This document shows, one piece after another, positions 7,874 to 27,100 of a DNA stretch of 64,000 bases (its first letter is position 1; the number at the start of each line of letters is the position of its first letter). Position numbers and translations under genes: made by a program. Where the stretch lies: the NCBI GenBank assembly GCA_032358255.1, contig JAULBX010030707.1, positions 1 to 64,000 of the forward strand, given 5' to 3'. The stretch is from Heterotrichella gracilis (Eukaryota > Sar > Xanthophyceae > Tribonematales > Xanthonemataceae). The notes beneath the pieces were generated by a model, which made no database searches, was not told the DNA's origin, and saw only the letters and a list, made by a program, of their open reading frames with translations.

Positions 7874-9752
7874 TCATTTTTGTGGCTGGATGACCATAAG
7901 CTTGCCCTTGCTGCCCACCAGTGGAGAGACCGTGCAGTGGCCCCCGGTGTAGCTGCCACGCAGCCTGCCTGCCTGGATCCTCAGCCACAGGGACTGCACT
8001 TGGCGTGTGGGTGGCCGGTATGCTGACCCTGACACAGCCTGCAGCACCATGCCCCACCAATTACGACCTACTCAGTCCAATGCTGAGCAAACTTATAAGG
8101 ACCTTGAGGTTGGCCAGTCACCGCACCAATTTTCAGCATATTACAGGACATATCACAGAGTAACAACAGGCACCTTTCAGCACAACAGTCAACCATTACA
8201 TATACGTTGGTATGAGGATAAACAATCACGTCATCTGTTGGAATGTAGTGAATACCTGGAGTAGCGTAGACAGTGCCTCCTTTGCCAGCACTTCTTGTGC
8301 TGCTGTCAGCCTCGCAACATCCACCACCACCCCTTCGCCAACCTGCCCAATGCTGCTCCCCGGCTGCACCGCTCCTTGTAACTGGCTTTCATGCTGCTGG
8401 ACCACGGTGCACTGCGCCACGAGCTGCTTGCATTGCTGCTGGATTTGCCCAGACACCTCTGCGCACAGATCTGCAATCTCCAGCAAATCCTCCACCAGGG
8501 AGGGCGCATGTGCATCTGCATTGCCGCCCATCAGTGCAGCACCTGTACCCCTGTTCAAGCTGGCATATAATCCATGCCCAAGCTCTGACTGAGAAATGAG
8601 GTCACGGACATAATTTCGGGCAAAAAATAGGTCCCTGTTGGTGGGGTCATCCACAAATTGCACCCCTTGTGCCGCACAAAGCTCCTGCAGGGAGGATTTT
8701 TGGAACGCCAGCAGGGGTCTGACCAGCTGTATTGCTCTCCCCTTGCTGCCATGAGGCTGGTAGGTGGTTCTGAATGGGATGCCACCTAAGCCAGACAACC
8801 CGCTGGCCCTGGCAATGCGCATCAAGACTGTCTCTGCTTGATCGTCTGCAGTGATTAGCAGGGGCATGTTGGCGCTCGCCATTGCCAATGGCGTTGGTGC
8901 TGGTACAGTGAACGTGCATGGGGTATAGACCTCAGAAACATATTACTCAAGGCTCAAATGAGTTGCAACTTGGTGGCATACAACTGGGCACTGGTGCTGC
9001 AAGTAAGTTCTTACATATAGACACCGCGGCGCATCCCGGCTAGTCCATGGCTATACACTGAACTAGCTTCAACCTGCTTGCATAGGTTACTGGATGATTT
9101 TTACACAGTACAACACAGCACGAGCACTGTGACATACCTGCATGATGCCCAGTGAGCAAGTGGGTGACGTTGAGCTCAGTGCAGGCGCCGTGTATGAGCT
9201 GGTACCGCGCATCCCTAGCTAGGGCCAGTTTATGCCCCTTGGCAGGCGGGTGCTCCCCCCAGTCCACCTTCAACACTGCGGGCTGTATGCCCAGGCTGGA
9301 TACGATGTCAGCCGTCCACGCTGCCTCCTCAGCGCTGTCGTGGCGCAGAGAGTGGTCTACTATGAACCCCTTGACAGTGCCCTCATGCCCACCTGTGCAA
9401 GGCAAGTGCGTGCTGGGCTGCAGTGCTTGATGATGCATTTTTTGCTTCATTCTGATTAGTATTGGTTCCATCAGAAATAAGGGTGCTGAGAGCGTGTATA
9501 TACTATGGTGCCATCATGGTGTTATATGCATGCATATGGGAGGGACATGCCGTGATGCATTGCGAGCCAAACACATAACAGCCCCGTATTTAACTATCCA
9601 CCTCGTGCTTTGCTCCACTCCGAGGTCAGCAGGGACAACGCCATACTGTCCGGTCCACCAGACACCGCCACGCCAGTCGTGCTGGGTTGCATGTGGGTTG
9701 CCTCAATGGCTCGCACGAACCGAGTATACATAGTCGACAACGAGCGGCTCAT
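7874..9752 (-). CDS. tilS: tRNA(Ile)-lysidine synthase (TilS), probably organellar
   Basis: Minus-strand exons 9602-9752, 9138-9392, 8256-8845 and 7874-7993 join in phase to 371 residues. The N-terminus carries the PP-loop ATP pyrophosphatase motif SGGPDS (residues 31-36). It is followed by VDHSLRHDSAEEA and the diagnostic TilS motif TGHHADDQAETVLMR, which is split across an intron, and then RPLL and DDPTNRD...RNYVRDL. The enzyme converts C34 of the minor tRNA-Ile(CAU) to lysidine so that it reads AUA, and it is needed only in bacteria and organelles. In a eukaryotic nuclear genome the product should be imported into the plastid or mitochondrion. The ATG at 9752 gives only a short leader; an upstream exon carrying a transit peptide is likely, because the frame stays open to about 9850 without another ATG. 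The last exon (WLRIQAGRLRGSY...) is inferred from phase and composition. Confidence 0.87.
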
Positions 9753-10372
9753 GGTCACTGCTGACGCAGAGCACGCTTTGCAAGCTGTTGCATGGAACCA
9801 ACAAAGACAAGTCTTGCCTTGTAGCTCCGGACACCGCAAGGCTAGGCCAAGGGAGCGTCAGGCTAGGCCAAGGGCCTTGTGAAGAGGATGGCTTTTGAGG
9901 AGGACGACTCGGCCTTCTCGTACCAACCCACCAGTGGCACTTGCTTTACAACAACAGCTTGTCCCCGAGAGCATTTCTGACACTTTGATGATTAATAATA
10001 GTGCCGTTTACTCCAGTTTGGGCAGACTGATGAAAACCCTACATTCCGCTGAAACCCTGCACTACGGGAGAGCTGCACTTGAAAAACACAAGCCAATTGG
10101 ACCCACCCTGTGGGCCTGGATCAGAGGCTCCAGCTGCGTCAGCAGCCGAGTAGAATGTATTCTAAGATCCTTTTTTACCAATGTTCTACCCTACTAGACT
10201 AGACGGCATGCAGAACTTGCCAAAAGCCATCAGGACGTACTAAACGCCTGACAATTTAAACAAAAAATGCAAACTTGAAGCCAAACATACATCTATCCCA
10301 ACCCTATACACACAAGTTTTAGCAAACAGCACTACAATTCCGAGTTAAAAACTTCTGCTGTACATCTCAAAG
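9753..10372. other. Region upstream of TilS and downstream of the EF-SAM gene
   Basis: No conserved exon was recognised. A small direct repeat (two copies of GGCTAGGCCAAGGG near 9839-9871) lies just upstream of TilS. The region probably contains the TilS promoter or a transit-peptide exon and the 3' UTR of the minus-strand gene that ends at 10373. Confidence 0.4.
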
Positions 10373-13300
10373 TCAGTGCTTGTCGCCCCTGTGCACCGGT
10401 GGCTTCACGTGCGCATGTGCATGCCCCGCTTGCGTGAACGCGTTCATGGCCCTCACCACCCCAAACGCATATTGCCACTTCTGTTTGGGTGACCGTGCAC
10501 TCCCCCCTTGCAAGCTTTCGTCATCATCAACCTCGCCTACAGCACCAACCCACAATATGTTGATAATTAAATTGCAATGCAGAGACAGAGCTGGGTGGCG
10601 TTTGCTTGTGCAGTACTGAACCCACACAGTCCATGGCATGTGATCAAGCAATGGGCTTGTGCAATCCTGGACCCGCACAGTCCATGGCACGTGACCAAGC
10701 AATGCCAAGGGCCACGCATGCACATACCTGCAGCTGGAGCCTTAATCTTGATAGAGGACCCACTGCGCACTTTGCGCGACTGGCGCGCGGGGCTGATGGT
10801 GCGCACAAGGGTGGCGAGAGGGGGTGGCATGCCAGGCGCATGTACGTGTGACCCTTCACCACTGGTGCTCCCACCACGCTTGTTCAGCTTGTTGATCCGC
10901 CGGTACTGCTCCTACAATGTACCACAGGTAATATTTTGAACACATGGTAGTGTGCAAGTTGTCTGGCAACTTGAACATCGAGGCATCTTGGATGGAAGGC
11001 ATGTGGCAGTGGTGTATCGCACACGGGCATGACAATGCAATGCATCCGCATGTGGTTGGCGCTCGCTCCCAACGGAGTCCCGGACAAACCCCTATTCTCC
11101 CCGGCTGGTTCCTTATTACACACTTTGGTCCCTGACCCTTCACAGCAGGAAAATCGAACCCTGAATTATCCCTAGCACTTGTGCAGCCCACCCCCGCCTA
11201 ACAGAAACCTAACCCCAGACCTAAACCCTAATCTGAACCCAAACATCAACCCTAAAACACCCCAAACTACAGTGCACCACCCCTCCCTCACCTGGCGGGA
11301 CGCAGTCAGGCCCGGGAAGCACAGCTCGCACACGCACTTGCTGTCCAAGCCGCAGTTGCTCAACGGCCCATGGGAGGCAATTTGGGTGTGGTCGTTGCAG
11401 TAGATGCGCTGGCACTGGCCGCAGTAGTGGCGCAGCATGGCCTGGCGCACATCCCGCAGGCGGTCAAAGCGCTGCGGGCAGCCGGGGAACGCGCACCGGC
11501 CCCTGCGTGGGTACCAGGGTGGGGGAAGAGTCAGCATGTGGGATGCAAGGGGCAGCGCTATGGGATCAGTAGGGGAAAGCACAGTGGGATCGGCATCAGG
11601 ATCAGGGGGATGACCCATCAGCACCATGGTCAGCGGCAGTGCAATGCATCACAGTTATGACTTATATCATTCATAATTTAGGGTTTAGGGTTTAGGGTGA
11701 GCTGCACGTGACTAGTGGAAGTCCCCTCCGTGGGTGGCATGCCCAGTGCGTTTTCACAAAACCAGCACAAATGCACGGACTGTACCCCACCCACCTGCCA
11801 CCACCCCCTCCCTCCTGCCACTGGCTACTGCTCCCCCCCTGTGCCACCTCACTGTCGCTCAGCACCCCCTCCTCCTCCCCACCAACCCCCTCCCCACCCG
11901 CATGCAGCCAGGCCTCCACAGTGGCGCCCTCAGCAAGGGATGGAAAGCTTCGTGAGGGGAGGCGCTTGGAGCTGCGGCCAGGGCCAGTCATGCCTGCATG
12001 TGAAACACGCACTGGGTTGCGGAAGAGAAACCCTAAACCCTTAACTCTGAGCTCTGAGCCCCGGACACGATAGCCTCTCAGCCATACAGCCTAAACCACT
12101 CATCCTGCGTAGACAGTGCAGTGGACTTCCTTGGAATTCCCCACAAAAAGATGTGGATTCCACAACCAGGGTGATGGACGATACTGCAGAGCTGGGGACC
12201 TAGACCATCAACTCTATATGCGCAGCGTGCGATCCAACCGACAAGGCTACATTTGGCAAGCACTAATGATCACCAGTGCTGGCCCCACCTGCAAACTCCT
12301 GCCCCCCAAACGTGTGGTTGCTCAACACCCCAGACTTTGAGTGTGAGCGCTTAACCGGCCCATGGGGCTGCGATCCTCTCTTAGGGCTGCCATGCCCTTT
12401 CCCCTCTTGCTCCTGCTCGTGGTCTGAGTGGGCAGAGGATGCTTGGCTATGTGTGGTGCGCACAGAGTGCAGGCTGTGCTTGCTGCCGGACTTGACGAGT
12501 GGGGAAGGAGGCGGTGGTGGTGGGGCCTGGCTGTCGCTGGCGGGGGGGGCGGGGAAGATCAGCGCTCGGAGACCAGCGGGGACCTGGACAAGGGAGTGCA
12601 TCAATGGTCATGTTCCCACCAGTTCACACTAGCTACAACTGCAGCAAAGGTCTCCAATCTGAAACCGCCACATCTTTGATCAGACTAATCCGCACTACTC
12701 GCATATAGCCAACCTGCATCAACCACACCAGCACCACCCACCTTGCAGTAGCTGGCCGCCAGGTGGCGCAGCGTCATGACGCGCATGCTGATGGTGATGG
12801 CAACAACCAACAGGCTGCACCCAGAGGCCCACGCCTGGACCACCCCCCATGCGCTGGCGGCGGCGGTGGGGCGGGATGGCGCGGCGGGTAAGGGGGCCGC
12901 GGCAGGTAGTTGTGCAGGGCAGGGAAGCGCTGGATCCAAGGTGGAAATGGGTTGAGGGAGGGTGGTGAACTCGCTCCACCCATAGGCGTTCCATGCGCTC
13001 AGGCGGTAGGTGTAGGTGCCTGCAATTGCATGCAGGCGGTGGGCTTAGGGTTTAGGGTCGAGGGCTTAGGGTTCCATGCGCTCAGGTGATAGATGTAGGT
13101 GCCTGGGGATGCATGTAAATGGTGGTTGAGGCAGTGCGTGCGAAGCGTGGCCATCAACCATCGACAGCAAATGCCTCATGCCTCAGTAGATTTGCGCTGC
13201 ATGCAGGGAAGTATGCACACTGCCGCCATGCACTATAAAACAAATCCTTCTCGCGCACATTTGACTCCACCACCTAGCATGGCCAGCAAGCCTTCCGCAC

Positions 13301-14886
13301 TAAGTAGAATGGTGTCGCATGCATGCAATGTCATCCCTGTCTACTAACATCCAAAACCTACCTGGGGCAAAACCCTCATCCACAAACGACATATCCTCGT
13401 CATCCGGTTCACCCACAGTTGCCCAGTGCGAGCCAGGCCTTCCCGCCAGGGTTGCATTGTCCCCCAGCACCAGCGATCGCTCCAGCAGGTACTTGTGGAA
13501 GGGGGGCTGGCCCAGGCGGGCGGGTGGGCGCCACGTCAGCAGGGTGGAGCAGCATGTGAGCGCCTTGACACGCAGCGCCTGTAGGATCACGAGTTGGTTC
13601 ATCAGCTACGCGGCTTTGAGAGCGGTAGGTCAGGCATTGGTAAGGCACAAATGCACATGCCAGCAAATCACACACGCTTCGTGAGGCACGAGGCGCTGTG
13701 ACACATTAATCACAGGATCAACCTCATAAACATGCAGCATTCCTGTGGGTGCATAGCACGAGAGCAATGGCATGACTGCCACAGGAATGCTGGTTTGTTC
13801 TTTGTTTCATGGAGCCCTGCTGTCTGTCACCTGTGGTGCCGAGGGCGCCCTGCCTAGGCCCAGGATGATTCGCTTCATTGCCCGGATGAGCTGCTGCTGG
13901 TGGAGCTTGCTGGTCACCTGAAGCACCACAGCAACGGCTAGCCTTACATCCTGCCCTGAACCCTAACCCCAAAACCCTAAACAGTGGCCAACACACGCAT
14001 ATGCAGGTGCAGGGTGCATGCAGGGGTTGGCATCAACTGGACGCTGCACTAGATAGCAATTGTATCCCATGCTCGTGCCCCTCTGCGTGCTGCACTGGAA
14101 AGCAGACGTGTCCAATGATCGTGCCCCATCTGCTTCCTGCTTCCCGTGGATGTGCAGCTACACGCTTACCCCAAGCTCAGTAGCCAATAGATTGCCGTTT
14201 GGGTCGTTGACGAGGAGCGGGAAGTCCAGCGCAGTCACTGCGTTTGCCTTGAAGGCCTCGGCATACTGGGGCAGCCCCAGGCTGTGACGCACCCAGTCCA
14301 CCACTCGGTGACCCTGCAAGCCACACCAAGCTGTGGTTAGGAAACACACCGTTGGCTGGGTGTATGCTTGCGCAGTAGAATGGCACCTGCCCTTGGTTGT
14401 GTACAACACCTCTGTTGGCTGAGTAGCCGGCCAGTGCACGTGCGTTGTGGTGTGGAGTAAGGACACCACAGCTAGTGCTGCATGGTCTCCGTGCCTAGCA
14501 GTGCACAGTGTTACCACACAGTGGCGCACCTGGAGCATGCCTATGCCCTTCAGGTGCGTCTCCATCTCGTCCTCGCTCACAAAGGCATACTCGTCCACCC
14601 CATCCAGATTGGCTGTCATGGTGTGCACAGCCTCCTTGAGCTGACCCTCGTCTGTGTACTCATCCTGGTAGTTCTTTTGCAGGTAGATGATGGCCTCGTT
14701 GGGCTCGATCTGCCCATTCTTGTCCTGGTCAATGCCCTCAAAGAACTTGACGAGATTGGAGTGTGGGTCGGAGTGTGGGACCGAGGCATACACCGCCACT
14801 GAGGCCAGCAACAGGCAGGCAAGGGCCCTGGCCACGGTTGCTGCCAGGGAGCGCCCAGAGGCTGTGTTGGGTGGTGGCTGGTCCAT
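10373..14886 (-). CDS. EF-hand/SAM/FN3 single-pass membrane protein with FYVE-like zinc finger (STIM-like luminal region)
   Basis: Ten minus-strand exons (14530-14886, 14170-14313, 13831-13917, 13362-13578, 12742-13019, 12289-12583, 11795-11993, 11292-11502, 10728-10911, 10373-10536) join with consistent phases to 711 residues. In order: a signal peptide (about 1-34); a canonical EF loop DQDKNGQIEPNE (53-64) followed by a degenerate second one near 95-107; a SAM domain (about 120-190) with VVDWVRHSLGLPQYAEAF and LGVTSKLHQQQLIRAMKRI; an FN3 domain (about 197-290) with LTWRPP and TYTYRLSAWNAYGWS; one membrane helix (about 325-346); a basic/Ser-rich linker; a Cys-rich finger (about 528-590) with MLRHYCGQCQRIYCNDHT; and a basic tail. 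The EF-SAM order and signal peptide match the animal ER calcium sensor STIM, but the FN3 and FYVE-like parts and the lack of a coiled-coil activation domain do not. The role is inferred as Ca2+-sensing in the ER lumen or at the cell surface, with a lipid-binding cytosolic finger. The first intron (216 nt) is in frame and stop-free, so a retained form would add 72 residues. Confidence 0.8.
11677..11697 (+). repeat. Interstitial telomere-like repeat, three TTTAGGG units
   Basis: Three perfect, contiguous TTTAGGG units lie in an intron of the EF-SAM gene. Short runs of the same unit, or of its complement, recur in most introns of the window, for example 13048-13058, 16685-16710, 18521-18536, 26930-26949, 27083-27099, 30060-30075 and 58906-58920. 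This is the plant-type telomere unit and here it is far from a chromosome end. Confidence 0.85.
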
Positions 14887-15563
14887 AGTTGTGCTCTCAG
14901 TCAGTCAGGGCACATGCTGTTCAAGGTTTGGAGGACTGTCTCCACCCATCAAGCTCGCCGTTTTCGTAACTGCTCAGGATTTTATGTCACGGTACATAAT
15001 TGCACTCAGCGTTCAACCTTGTCAACCCAGCAGCTTGGCACTCAGGAGTCAACTAGCATGTGTGTGGCCAGGAGTCAGCTTCCAACAGCTGCTTTGGCAC
15101 CTAAGCTGTTGCTCAACTGGCCAGCAGGGAGACATGGGCGACTTGGGAAAGCTTGGGGTAAGGTGTGTTGTCCACAAGTTCAGCTTGATCTGCGGTGAAG
15201 TGTGGCTAAATTTCAGCGAGAAACGTGCCAGGCATATAAGTCCCACCCCAGGAGGCATATGCTTGAATCTGTGGATCAACGAGACCACCTTGTACAGCAG
15301 CATAACAATAGTCAATAAATTTGTTTAGCAACCATAACAGCAGTTGAAGTAGAACTTCAGAAGTACTCATAACACGAGCCTCGCCCAGGGCAAGAGAGAG
15401 CATGCGAGTACGGGTACAGAGCCAATTTTGAGATAAATGCTAGCTGAAGCCTTCAAGAGGTGCCACAAACTCGCGCAAACTTCAAGAGTGCTGCAACGAG
15501 TTGCAAGTGGTGTGCAAGCAACGTTCCAATTGGCGTGCAGCAACGGTCCCAACAAAGAATTCA
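14887..15563. other. Divergent promoter region between the EF-SAM and F-box/LysM genes
   Basis: The 677 bp separate two divergent start codons. No exon is recognised and no clear TATA box stands out; 5' UTRs and promoters of both genes should lie here. Confidence 0.45.
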
Positions 15564-24106: not shown

Positions 24107-27100
24107 CCGCGGTGTGTGCTATTGCACCTATGGCGCCCCTGCTACCATCCCCACCTTGGCCGCCTCCCAGCAGTACTACGCCCAGGCAGCGCAGATGTGG
24201 AAGCTGTGGAGCACGCAGGAGGGCGCATTCAGGCACCCAGAAAGCACAGAAATACTGGTGAGAAGGGTAATTCAACCTAAACCGTAAAGCACGGAAACAC
24301 TGGTGCGGTCAGCAACCCTAAATCCTAAAGCATGGAAATGCTGGTGCGAGGAGCAACTCACCACAGCCGCACCTGCTGTATCCCTGTACCCCGGGTTCAA
24401 ATTCCTGAGTCTTGCATGGTATGCCAGCCTTACGGGGCCTGGCATTAGTGCACCAAAGGTGTTTTCACTGCATGCACCACAGCGCGTTGCAACAGACCCC
24501 ATGGCTAGTGCTGACCTGTCCCTGTGTGTGGTTGCGCTTGCAGTTGCCCCAGCTGCTGCGAAGGGTGCGCCAGTCCAGGCACCACCTACCCGAACCAGGT
24601 GAGAGGCGCAACAAATATAATGTAAAATGCATGAAATAAATAAAACATATGTTGCAAATATTTCTGTTTAGACATGTCCTGAACAGAAATACATATTCAA
24701 GATTTCAAGATTTCAAGATTTACTAACATCGTTTAATGAATAAACGTACTGGTTTCAAAAATATATGCTTTTTTTGTATGTATTAGTCTTTCATGCGGCT
24801 CCTGGTAACGCCTCCCCCTTGCAGACCTGACCCGCGCACAGGCTGAGCGCCAGCTTCGCTCCGCCACCAAGGCCGCCGAGGCCGCTGTGCTGCGCTGCGC
24901 CAAGCTGGGGGCCAGCGTGGGGGTGGCGGTGGAGGTGGATCCGGGGCTGGATATAGAGCTGCCGCCTGTGGAAATGGTGCGTGGGGTGGAGGCGGGGTTA
25001 GTGGAATATGTGGGTGTGTGCACTTTGACGCCGTTCAAGCGCTGCTGGCTGTGCGTGTGGGTGTGGTGGGCATGGTTGGTCTGGGGGTGTGTAGCATGGG
25101 GACGGGGCTGGATAGAGCGCTGCCACTCCATGAGGTCTGCACACAGAACCGACCCCAGGCCAGTGATGTGCATTTTGCCGACGTGGTTGAGCTAGGGTGT
25201 TAGCATAGGGTAGGTGGCGACGGCGCACTCAGTGGTTGGATGGTAAAATTCCGCCGGTGGAATTGGTGCGGGTATGCGGGTTGGATGGGCGCATGTTCAT
25301 GTACGGCCCTGCGCCAGTTTTAGCATAGTGCAATGCCGTGGGTTGATTTAAGGTAGCAAATGTATCCAGCATTTATTGGTTTCCATCTTGTTCCATAGAC
25401 TTCCACCCTGACACTCATACCCCTTGCACGCAGGTGGATGTGACCCGGCTTGAGCAGGAAGCCGCCTCCATCCAGCGCGCACATGTGGAGCGCAGGCGCA
25501 GGGAGCAGCACCTGAGGGAGGCGGCGGAGGAGGCGGCGGCTGCCGCAAAGGTGAGGGGGTGGGGAAATGGGCTGTGCTCTCATGGGAAGCGTTGATGGGA
25601 AGGGCGGGGGGCTTGGGTCGCAAGGGTGAGGGGTGGGGGGCCAAGGTGCGCGGGAACTGAGGCGGGGTTGGTTGCAGGTAAACGTATGCATTCCTTGGTT
25701 TGAAGGAGGGGCTTCAGCGTTTAGGGTTGACTGATGGCCCCTTCAGCGTTTTTAGGACTTGATTGATGGTCCTGCGCAGGTGGCAGCCGGGCATTCCTCC
25801 CTCTTGTAACCCCGAATGTGATGTATGCACCCTCCTCCTTGTGCAGGTGGCAGCCAAGCATGCTGCCAAGGTGGCGGCCGCACAGCAGGCCATGGCAGCA
25901 GAGCGCAGCAGCAGTGGGGGGTCCGGTGGGGGGGGAGGTGGGGGTGCGGGGCGTCACCACCCAGGGGCGCACCAGGGGCACGCGCGGGGACAGGGCGCAT
26001 CCCCAGGGGACGGGCAGCGACCAGGTGGGGGGGGTGCGGTGTGGGGGCAACCAGGGGCCGGGTGGTTTTCACCGAGGTGGCACTGATGAATCTAGGATTT
26101 AGGGTCTGGGCAGGCATAAGATTAGGGTTGAGATTTGCTGCTGCCCGTGTTCCAGGGTCATTTAGTGGTGAGCCCCATACCCTGACTCAAATCCAGTAGC
26201 TCGCTCGTGACTGTGAATTCAACGTGGCCTGGTTTGACAGCCGCACAAGCCTGGGATGGCTCCCTGCGTAGGTTGGCTCCCCAAATCGACTTTCTGTCCA
26301 AAAGCTGTTGCATTTGTCTCATGCAAGCCTCGTGCCTGTACCTGTGTTATGCAGGTCCCGCTCGCCATGCGCAGCCTCATCAATGGGGCTCGGGGCAGGG
26401 GGCGCACAGGGCGGGACCGCCGCTGCCCCACCACCACCCCACCTCCCCCACCCACCAGCGATCTGCGCCAGAGGGGCACCCCCTGCCCCCCATCCGCACA
26501 GCCGCCCCCACCCAAGCTGCCAGGTGTGTGCCCTCCCCTCCCCTCTGCCATTAGCTGTGGCGAATGAATGAATCTGCATTTCAGCTGCGATCCTGATTAG
26601 CATTAGCAGCGGATTAGCAGCCAGTCCTAAAGGCACCATTGCAATTGTAAAGGCCTACTAGGCGTTGTGCAGCCGCATTGGTCCCATGCTTGCATCCAAT
26701 GCTTTATGAACATGCACCAGTCCACGGATTGTACTCTGCCCCACAACTCTTTCACCTTCCTCGCCCTCCCCATCACTCCACCCCCCAGGCCGCCCCCTCC
26801 CTCCTCCCCCAGCCCCCACCACAGCCACAAGCAGGGGGCCAAGGGGCAGGCAGCACCGCACGGCAAGGAGCGGGCGGGCGCCCACCAACAACCTCATGCA
26901 GGTACGCAGCAATACAGCCACGTAAGGGTTTAGGGTTTGGGGTTTAGGGTAAGCTGCATTACAGTCACATTAGATGGTAGTGCGTATTGGTTGTCCCAAA
27001 CTATTTCTGACAGGGAAGGTAATACAAAAGGAGCTCTTTTTGTGGCTACACACCACATGCGAGGTGGGGTGTGCATGTGACCACTCTAAACCCTAAACCC

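Follow-up and report, generated by a model that had tools for sequence, protein, structure and literature searches.

The closest described counterparts of the protein considered here are STIM1 and STIM2, with which it has in common a signal peptide, a canonical EF hand, probably a degenerate second one, a SAM domain, and then a single membrane helix. The protein is the predicted product of a ten-exon gene in a window of DNA (the whole stretch of 64,000 nucleotides that was analysed, part of contig C814) from a genome that we searched as 68.5 Mb in 903 contigs. Computation establishes that the protein has SAM and FN3 domains, in what order its parts stand and that its EF-SAM unit matches that of STIM in sequence. 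We suggest that the gene encodes a type I membrane protein acting as a luminal Ca2+ sensor, with a STIM-like input and a different output; we regard this reading as evenly balanced between right and wrong.

As far as the available text of each paper goes, STIM dates from about the time when animals originated (PMC7016017); a STIM1 homologue is missing from those green algae that have Orai (PMC11085791); STIMs are apparently missing from Chlamydomonas, for which another means of gating is suggested (PMC8318260); and embryophytes are without STIM-Orai machinery (PMC11894410). The second and third of these agree with the first-pass annotation of this DNA, which had stated that STIM is not known from green plants. 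Among the papers listed by our literature searches, none described an algal membrane protein of EF-SAM-FN3 order in its title or abstract, with most subscription papers lying outside the coverage of those searches. The gene as a whole, and the features of its luminal head, are as follows.

14886 to 10373, minus strand: ten-exon gene, 711 codons, nine introns
14530..14886, minus strand: exon 1, residues 1-119, with signal peptide, canonical EF hand and degenerate second EF hand
14782..14886, minus strand: signal peptide region, residues 1-35, Kyte-Doolittle hydropathy 2.14 at residues 14-32
14695..14730, minus strand: canonical EF loop DQDKNGQIEPNE, residues 53-64
14566..14616, minus strand: second, non-canonical EF loop region TANLDGVDEYAFVSEDE, residues 91-107, placed by alignments
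14170..14313, minus strand: exon 2, residues 120-167, first part of the SAM domain, with a SAM_2 match
13831..13917, minus strand: exon 3, residues 168-196, last SAM helix and start of FN3

The SAM domain of this head is significant. The Pfam model SAM_2 matches residues 121-184 at E 6.4e-8, above its cutoff and across the junction of exons 2 and 3, while SAM_1 falls just under on the whole protein (21.9 against a cutoff of 23 bits, E 0.00023) and passes on a shorter piece. Among 16 matches of the EF-SAM unit to all PDB sequences at E <=1, the first was 6pw7, the EF-SAM of a STIM1 that we take to be from a worm, at 6e-7 and running from the EF loop through the SAM domain; SAMD5 came second (0.0027), STIM2 third (0.011) and STIM1 fourth (0.012). 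With the SAM domain alone 6pw7 again came first, at 6.7e-5 among 19 matches at E <=10. A profile made from three STIM EF-SAM units gave 36.1 bits for the EF-SAM unit, 29.6 for SAM alone and 8.3 for EF alone, against at most 14.9 bits for the other SAM places of the genome (five of seven scored, those on C225 and C343 being left out) and at most 4.0 bits for 200 shuffles. Comparison by hhalign gave the whole unit a probability of 95.5, the SAM part by itself 96.2 and the EF part by itself 6.9, with 73 and 68 for two other SAMs of the genome.

The EF part is less distinct. With the SAM domain fixed and the EF part shuffled, the real score was reached by one shuffle in 1000, which indicates that the EF part contributes something. 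The EF-hand_7 pair model covers residues 11-74 of the 161-residue EF-SAM piece at E 0.007, and EF models on shorter pieces gave 0.003 to 0.009, all below cutoff; in a scan of the whole protein the EF-hand, FN3 and AN1 models were likewise sub-threshold (0.06 to 0.09). NCBIfam returned two matches for the luminal part, both at chance level (0.19 and 0.28). The TANLDGVDEYAFVSEDE region would sit where STIM has its hidden EF hand, and cleavage of the signal peptide probably falls near YAS. From the EF loop to LPQY we counted 80 residues on the alignments, as compared with 71 in STIM1 and STIM2, a spacing that becomes STIM-like through the removal of intron 1.

That intron (14314-14529, 216 nucleotides) is divisible by three and free of stops, so that its retention would keep the frame and insert 72 residues between the EF hands and the SAM domain.

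Several results weigh against the reading of a STIM-like luminal sensor. In the search with SAM alone, liprin-alpha-3 and SAMD5 follow just behind 6pw7 (0.0006 to 0.0009), a small margin, and the EF part alone drew 26 PDB matches at E <=10, all generic EF proteins and none of them STIM. The letters of 6pw7, taken back to the whole genome at E <=10, gave a single match, exon 2 of the ten-exon gene, which favours that reading; at E 0.148, however, the match is not significant alone, and it covers the SAM domain only. The EF-hand_STIM1 model scored 0.053 on the EF-SAM piece, and across the genome at E <=10 it matched only on C277 and C46, neither place being this gene. A chimera made by fusing a proline-dehydrogenase-like EF pair directly to our SAM domain scored 40.4 bits on the three-STIM profile against 36.1 for the real unit; this was a chosen, hard control, that pair being the genome's best place for EF-hand_STIM1. 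When a linker of 5 to 15 residues was put in, the chimera gave 36.9 to 35.8 bits, and calmodulin pieces and two berovin fragments fused to the SAM domain gained at most 1.5 bits. Finally, STIM has anchor leucines, named in the available part of PMC10400917, along its last SAM helix; by eye, I178, M181 and I185 line up with them only by way of a one-residue gap, and an alignment that is ungapped there has R and K at two of the three places.

After the chimera control (40.4 against 36.1 bits) we dropped the idea that the EF part is itself STIM-specific; it reads as an ordinary EF pair, not demonstrably that of STIM. The likeness to STIM appears to rest on the SAM domain, the domain order, the luminal position and the spacing. 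The signal peptide, the EF loop DQDKNGQIEPNE and the SAM domain had all been annotated from the letters and are borne out here. The SAM domain, whose C-terminal half had been said to track the end of the STIM SAM, has STIM as its best match, a likeness that does not extend to the EF part. The first-pass annotation had also called for hidden Markov model searches, in which SAM_2 passes its cutoff and the EF, FN3 and FYVE models stay below theirs.

Both EF-hand_STIM1 places lie outside the window, and the model was set aside as a lead in the genome. The place on C277 (L013 1510-1910) looks by eye to be a proline-dehydrogenase-like gene with an EF-hand pair.

No second gene of this kind emerged from a protein search of the genome, which returned only the gene's own exons (10 of 10 places), and no relatives were found in the collections viral_contigs and genome_contigs, which are viral and prokaryotic and uninformative on other algae. 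A strict EF-loop pattern had no match around the seven other SAM places (eight stretches), although it would miss a loop divided between two exons; a looser pattern matched once, at C285:20141 and on the opposite strand, in what looks like a chance match. On the same contig, two near-identical SAM exons lie 6.7 kb apart (G000:C285:19521-19709 and 26264-26452), probably a tandem duplication.

The first-pass annotation had left two origins side by side, a distant relative of STIM or an independent EF-SAM assembly; a SAM domain that is the most STIM-like among those tested in the genome (29.6 against at most 14.9 bits) speaks for the first, while the EF part carries no STIM-specific signal. The independent assembly could take the form of a surface receptor, in which SAM, EF and FN3 domains had been combined by shuffling in algae and the head would be extracellular, with FN3 and SAM being adhesive and the EF hand either structural or sensing external Ca2+. 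The generic character of the EF part suits such a protein, as do the FN3 domain, an N-glycosylation motif (NAT) at residue 237 and a C-terminus in which no recognised ER (endoplasmic reticulum) retention signal was seen by eye. Set against it are the best SAM match, which is STIM, and the EF-to-SAM spacing, which is near that of STIM (80 and 71 residues); to our knowledge, moreover, SAM domains in the lumen or outside the cell are rare except in STIM. We consider a surface receptor possible, if rather unlikely. The features of the remainder of the protein are as follows.

13362..13578, minus strand: exon 4, residues 197-269, FN3, based on titin and myosin-binding protein C FN3 chains
12742..13019, minus strand: exon 5, residues 269-361, end of FN3, Pro/Ala-rich stalk and membrane helix
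12787..12846, minus strand: single transmembrane helix, residues about 327-346, hydropathy 1.78 at residues 327-345, with basic residues after it
12289..12583, minus strand: exon 6, residues 362-460, Pro/Ser/Gly-rich and probably disordered, judged by the composition of residues 362-525
11795..11993, minus strand: exon 7, residues 460-526, Gly/Ser/Glu-rich linker
11292..11502, minus strand: exon 8, residues 526-596, Cys/His finger
11319..11495, minus strand: ligand cluster C-x4-C-x18-C-x2-C-x4-C-x2-H-x5-H-x5-C-x5-C-x-C-x2-C, residues 529-587, AN1/FYVE-like
10728..10911, minus strand: exon 9, residues 597-658, holding the basic patch
10741..10800, minus strand: basic patch TISPARQSRKVRSGSSIKIK, residues 634-653, net charge +6 over its 20 residues
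10373..10536, minus strand: exon 10, C-terminal tail and stop

The FN3 domain is weak in Pfam (0.072 on the whole protein) and clear against solved FN3 chains: titin at 1e-12, a sum across the repeats of a single chain, and 1x5y, a myosin-binding protein C chain of 111 residues, at 7.8e-6 over query positions 3-105, spanning exons 3 to 5. These chains, and the hydropathy of 1.78, support the FN3 domain and the one membrane helix that had been annotated. A stretch of about 165 residues, rich in Gly, Ser and Pro, separates the helix from the finger, and the basic patch comes next.

The gene model itself agrees with the coordinates, strand, ten exons and 711 residues first given to it: all nine introns are GT-AG, and the joined exons form one frame with a single stop, at 10373-10375. 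The exons have a G+C content of 0.64 (0.75 at the third position) as compared with 0.53 in the introns. Junctions 2/3, 3/4 and 4/5 are each bridged by a domain; none bridges exons 5 to 8, so that it is splice signals, frame and base composition that tie the finger to the receptor. This leaves room for two genes joined in error, one for EF-SAM-FN3 and membrane helix (exons 1-5) and another for the finger (exons 6-10 or 7-10), and it fits such a split that exon 7 starts near a Met and that exons 6 and 7 are of low complexity with a weak third-position signal. However, all junctions are GT-AG and in frame, exons 6 and 7 have exon-like G+C (0.64 and 0.69) compared with introns 5 to 7 (0.51 to 0.55), and TGTAA, which we take to be the green algal polyadenylation signal, occurs in a scan of 9700-14900 at 9950, past the stop, as well as within introns 2 and 8, with none between exons 5 and 8. 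We regard two joined genes as quite improbable.

Within intron 4, at 13071-13125 of the window, 55 nucleotides form an 80% copy of the first part of exon 5 together with the intron bases beside it. GTYIYHLSAWN can still be read from this partial duplication of the exon. Short telomere-like CCCTAAA/TTTAGGG runs were seen by eye in introns, at 11203-11260, 11677-11699 and 13040-13079. The neighbouring genes look separate from the ten-exon gene. Downstream on the same strand are the exons of a PP-loop ATPase (window 8229-9857, minus), matched by Pfam ATP_bind_3 in three open frames (8.6e-19, 1.8e-11 and 0.0011, the last under cutoff), which we presume is probably a TilS-type tRNA-Ile lysidine synthase; the upstream plus-strand open frames (two of two tested) match no Pfam family at E <=0.1.

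The finger has Cys or His at residues 529, 534, 551, 553, 556, 561, 564, 570, 576, 582, 584 and 587, and when isolated it scores 0.005 with the AN1 model and 0.099 with FYVE, neither of which reaches its cutoff; FYVE on the whole protein gives 4.1. Against the PDB (10 matches at E <=10) the best was a C2H2 protein at 0.011, with no single stretch passing, and the FYVE domain of Vps27 gave E 0.13. The AN1 pattern is C-x2/4-C ... C-x2-C-x4-C-x2-H-x5-H-x-C, and in common with this ZFAND family motif the finger has a C-x4-C start and a C-x2-C-x4-C-x2-H-x5-H core. It differs in a long spacer between the first pairs, in four extra Cys after the core and in its last His-Cys spacing: the pattern fits up to the second His, after which the last Cys follows at five residues where AN1 has one, and the score of 0.005 remains below cutoff. 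FYVE domains have eight zinc ligands and the motifs WxxD, RRHHCR and RVC. The RHYCGQC of our finger resembles the RHHCRxCG core, and there is a Cys pair at the end; unlike FYVE, it has no WxxD and has His at the place of the sixth Cys.

We have dropped a FYVE identity as unproven, AN1 scoring better and both being under cutoff. The finger appears treble-clef-like, and by these sub-threshold scores it has no better claim to FYVE than to AN1. Thus of the FYVE-like finger that was first annotated the Cys/His cluster is real, while AN1 (0.005) stands ahead of FYVE (0.099). The further proposal of a cytosolic lipid-binding finger is weakened by the FYVE score, the missing WxxD and the His in place of the sixth Cys, and lipid binding by the finger is now a guess.

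The host genome is, on the evidence of its rubisco, that of a green alga: the small subunit is encoded at one place, and its closest chains are 1gk8 and 1ir2 (E 7.5e-59), which we take to be from Chlamydomonas; these rank above chains presumably from land plants and far above the red-type enzymes. Given this green-type rubisco, and 6pw7 as first match, the STIM-like EF-SAM order reported by the first-pass annotation is supported for a green alga. Co-occurrence with Orai, which it had proposed to look for in other green algae, was found in this genome, in the form of a single Orai-like gene (G000:C30:67524-69653, minus strand; Pfam Orai-1 at 5e-36 with exons joined); no second Orai was found by protein search of the genome, which returned the gene's own exons only (five of five). 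In a weak alignment to solved Orai chains (best E 5e-4), presumably those of the fly, the pore glutamate aligns with Gln and the glutamate of the third transmembrane segment with Asn. Gln at the pore place may make simple STIM-Orai entry less likely, or could hint at another use of the pore.

The presence of this one Orai-like gene (Orai-1, 5e-36) raises the question of whether the protein is a true STIM counterpart, sensing Ca2+ in the ER and gating the alga's Orai-like channel for store-operated entry. STIM has a C-terminal basic patch, and the basic patch in the tail of our protein recalls it. The exchanges of pore Glu for Gln and third-segment Glu for Asn (in the weak alignment) count against such a role, as does the lack of a match to the SOAR model in the exon-by-exon genome search. 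IP3 receptor domain models also had no match in the genome, though none of the control genomes matched them either. We consider a true STIM counterpart very improbable.

Returning to a luminal sensor with a different output, we suggest the following mechanism, in which we infer the ER location, the Ca2+ switching, the oligomerisation, the zinc in the finger and a partner for the finger. At rest, luminal Ca2+ would be held by the canonical EF hand, with the EF pair packed on the last SAM helix. A drop in luminal Ca2+ would free the SAM domain and allow the heads to oligomerise, and the FN3 domain and Pro/Ala stalk would pass the change to the single membrane helix. Clustering would then gather the cytosolic tails, each comprising a treble-clef-type zinc finger behind a long disordered linker, and the basic patch, which could bind an acidic membrane or a partner. 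That the input side works like STIM we put at about even.

If the EF-SAM unit is homologous to that of STIM, the switch would date from before the plant-animal split and would have been wired to a different output. We tentatively extend this to the proposal that the EF-SAM store sensor predates animals and that green algae keep a homologous switch, linked through FN3 to a zinc-finger output, as their missing ER Ca2+ sensor; alongside an Orai-like protein with Gln in its pore, signalling may then go via the finger and not via Ca2+ entry. We think this wider proposal unlikely. A luminal EF-SAM protein of a green alga would offer a concrete knock-out candidate for a Ca2+ sensor thought to be lacking.

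Considering the known systems together, the SAM domains of liprin-alpha-3 and SAMD5 are nearly equal to those of STIM in their similarity to ours; as far as is known, they are cytosolic SAMs without EF hands before them. From STIM the protein differs in having FN3 and a stalk, about 140 residues, between the SAM domain and the membrane helix, and in having the finger and a disordered tail, rich in Gly, Ser and Pro (judged by composition, with no coiled-coil program), in place of the coiled coils. SOAR was absent from the Pfam matches of the protein and from those of the exon-by-exon search of the genome, which a split SOAR could escape; among 14 control genomes the model gave a signal in two, under cutoff, and so this is not a strong test of absence. 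The S/TxIP motif is absent from the protein. The product of the ten-exon gene is not a STIM by the definition of that family, since it lacks SOAR and has its membrane helix set apart from the SAM domain. What the sequence describes is a putative compartment-facing head in the domain order of STIM, joined to a quite different inner half: a testable candidate Ca2+ sensor.

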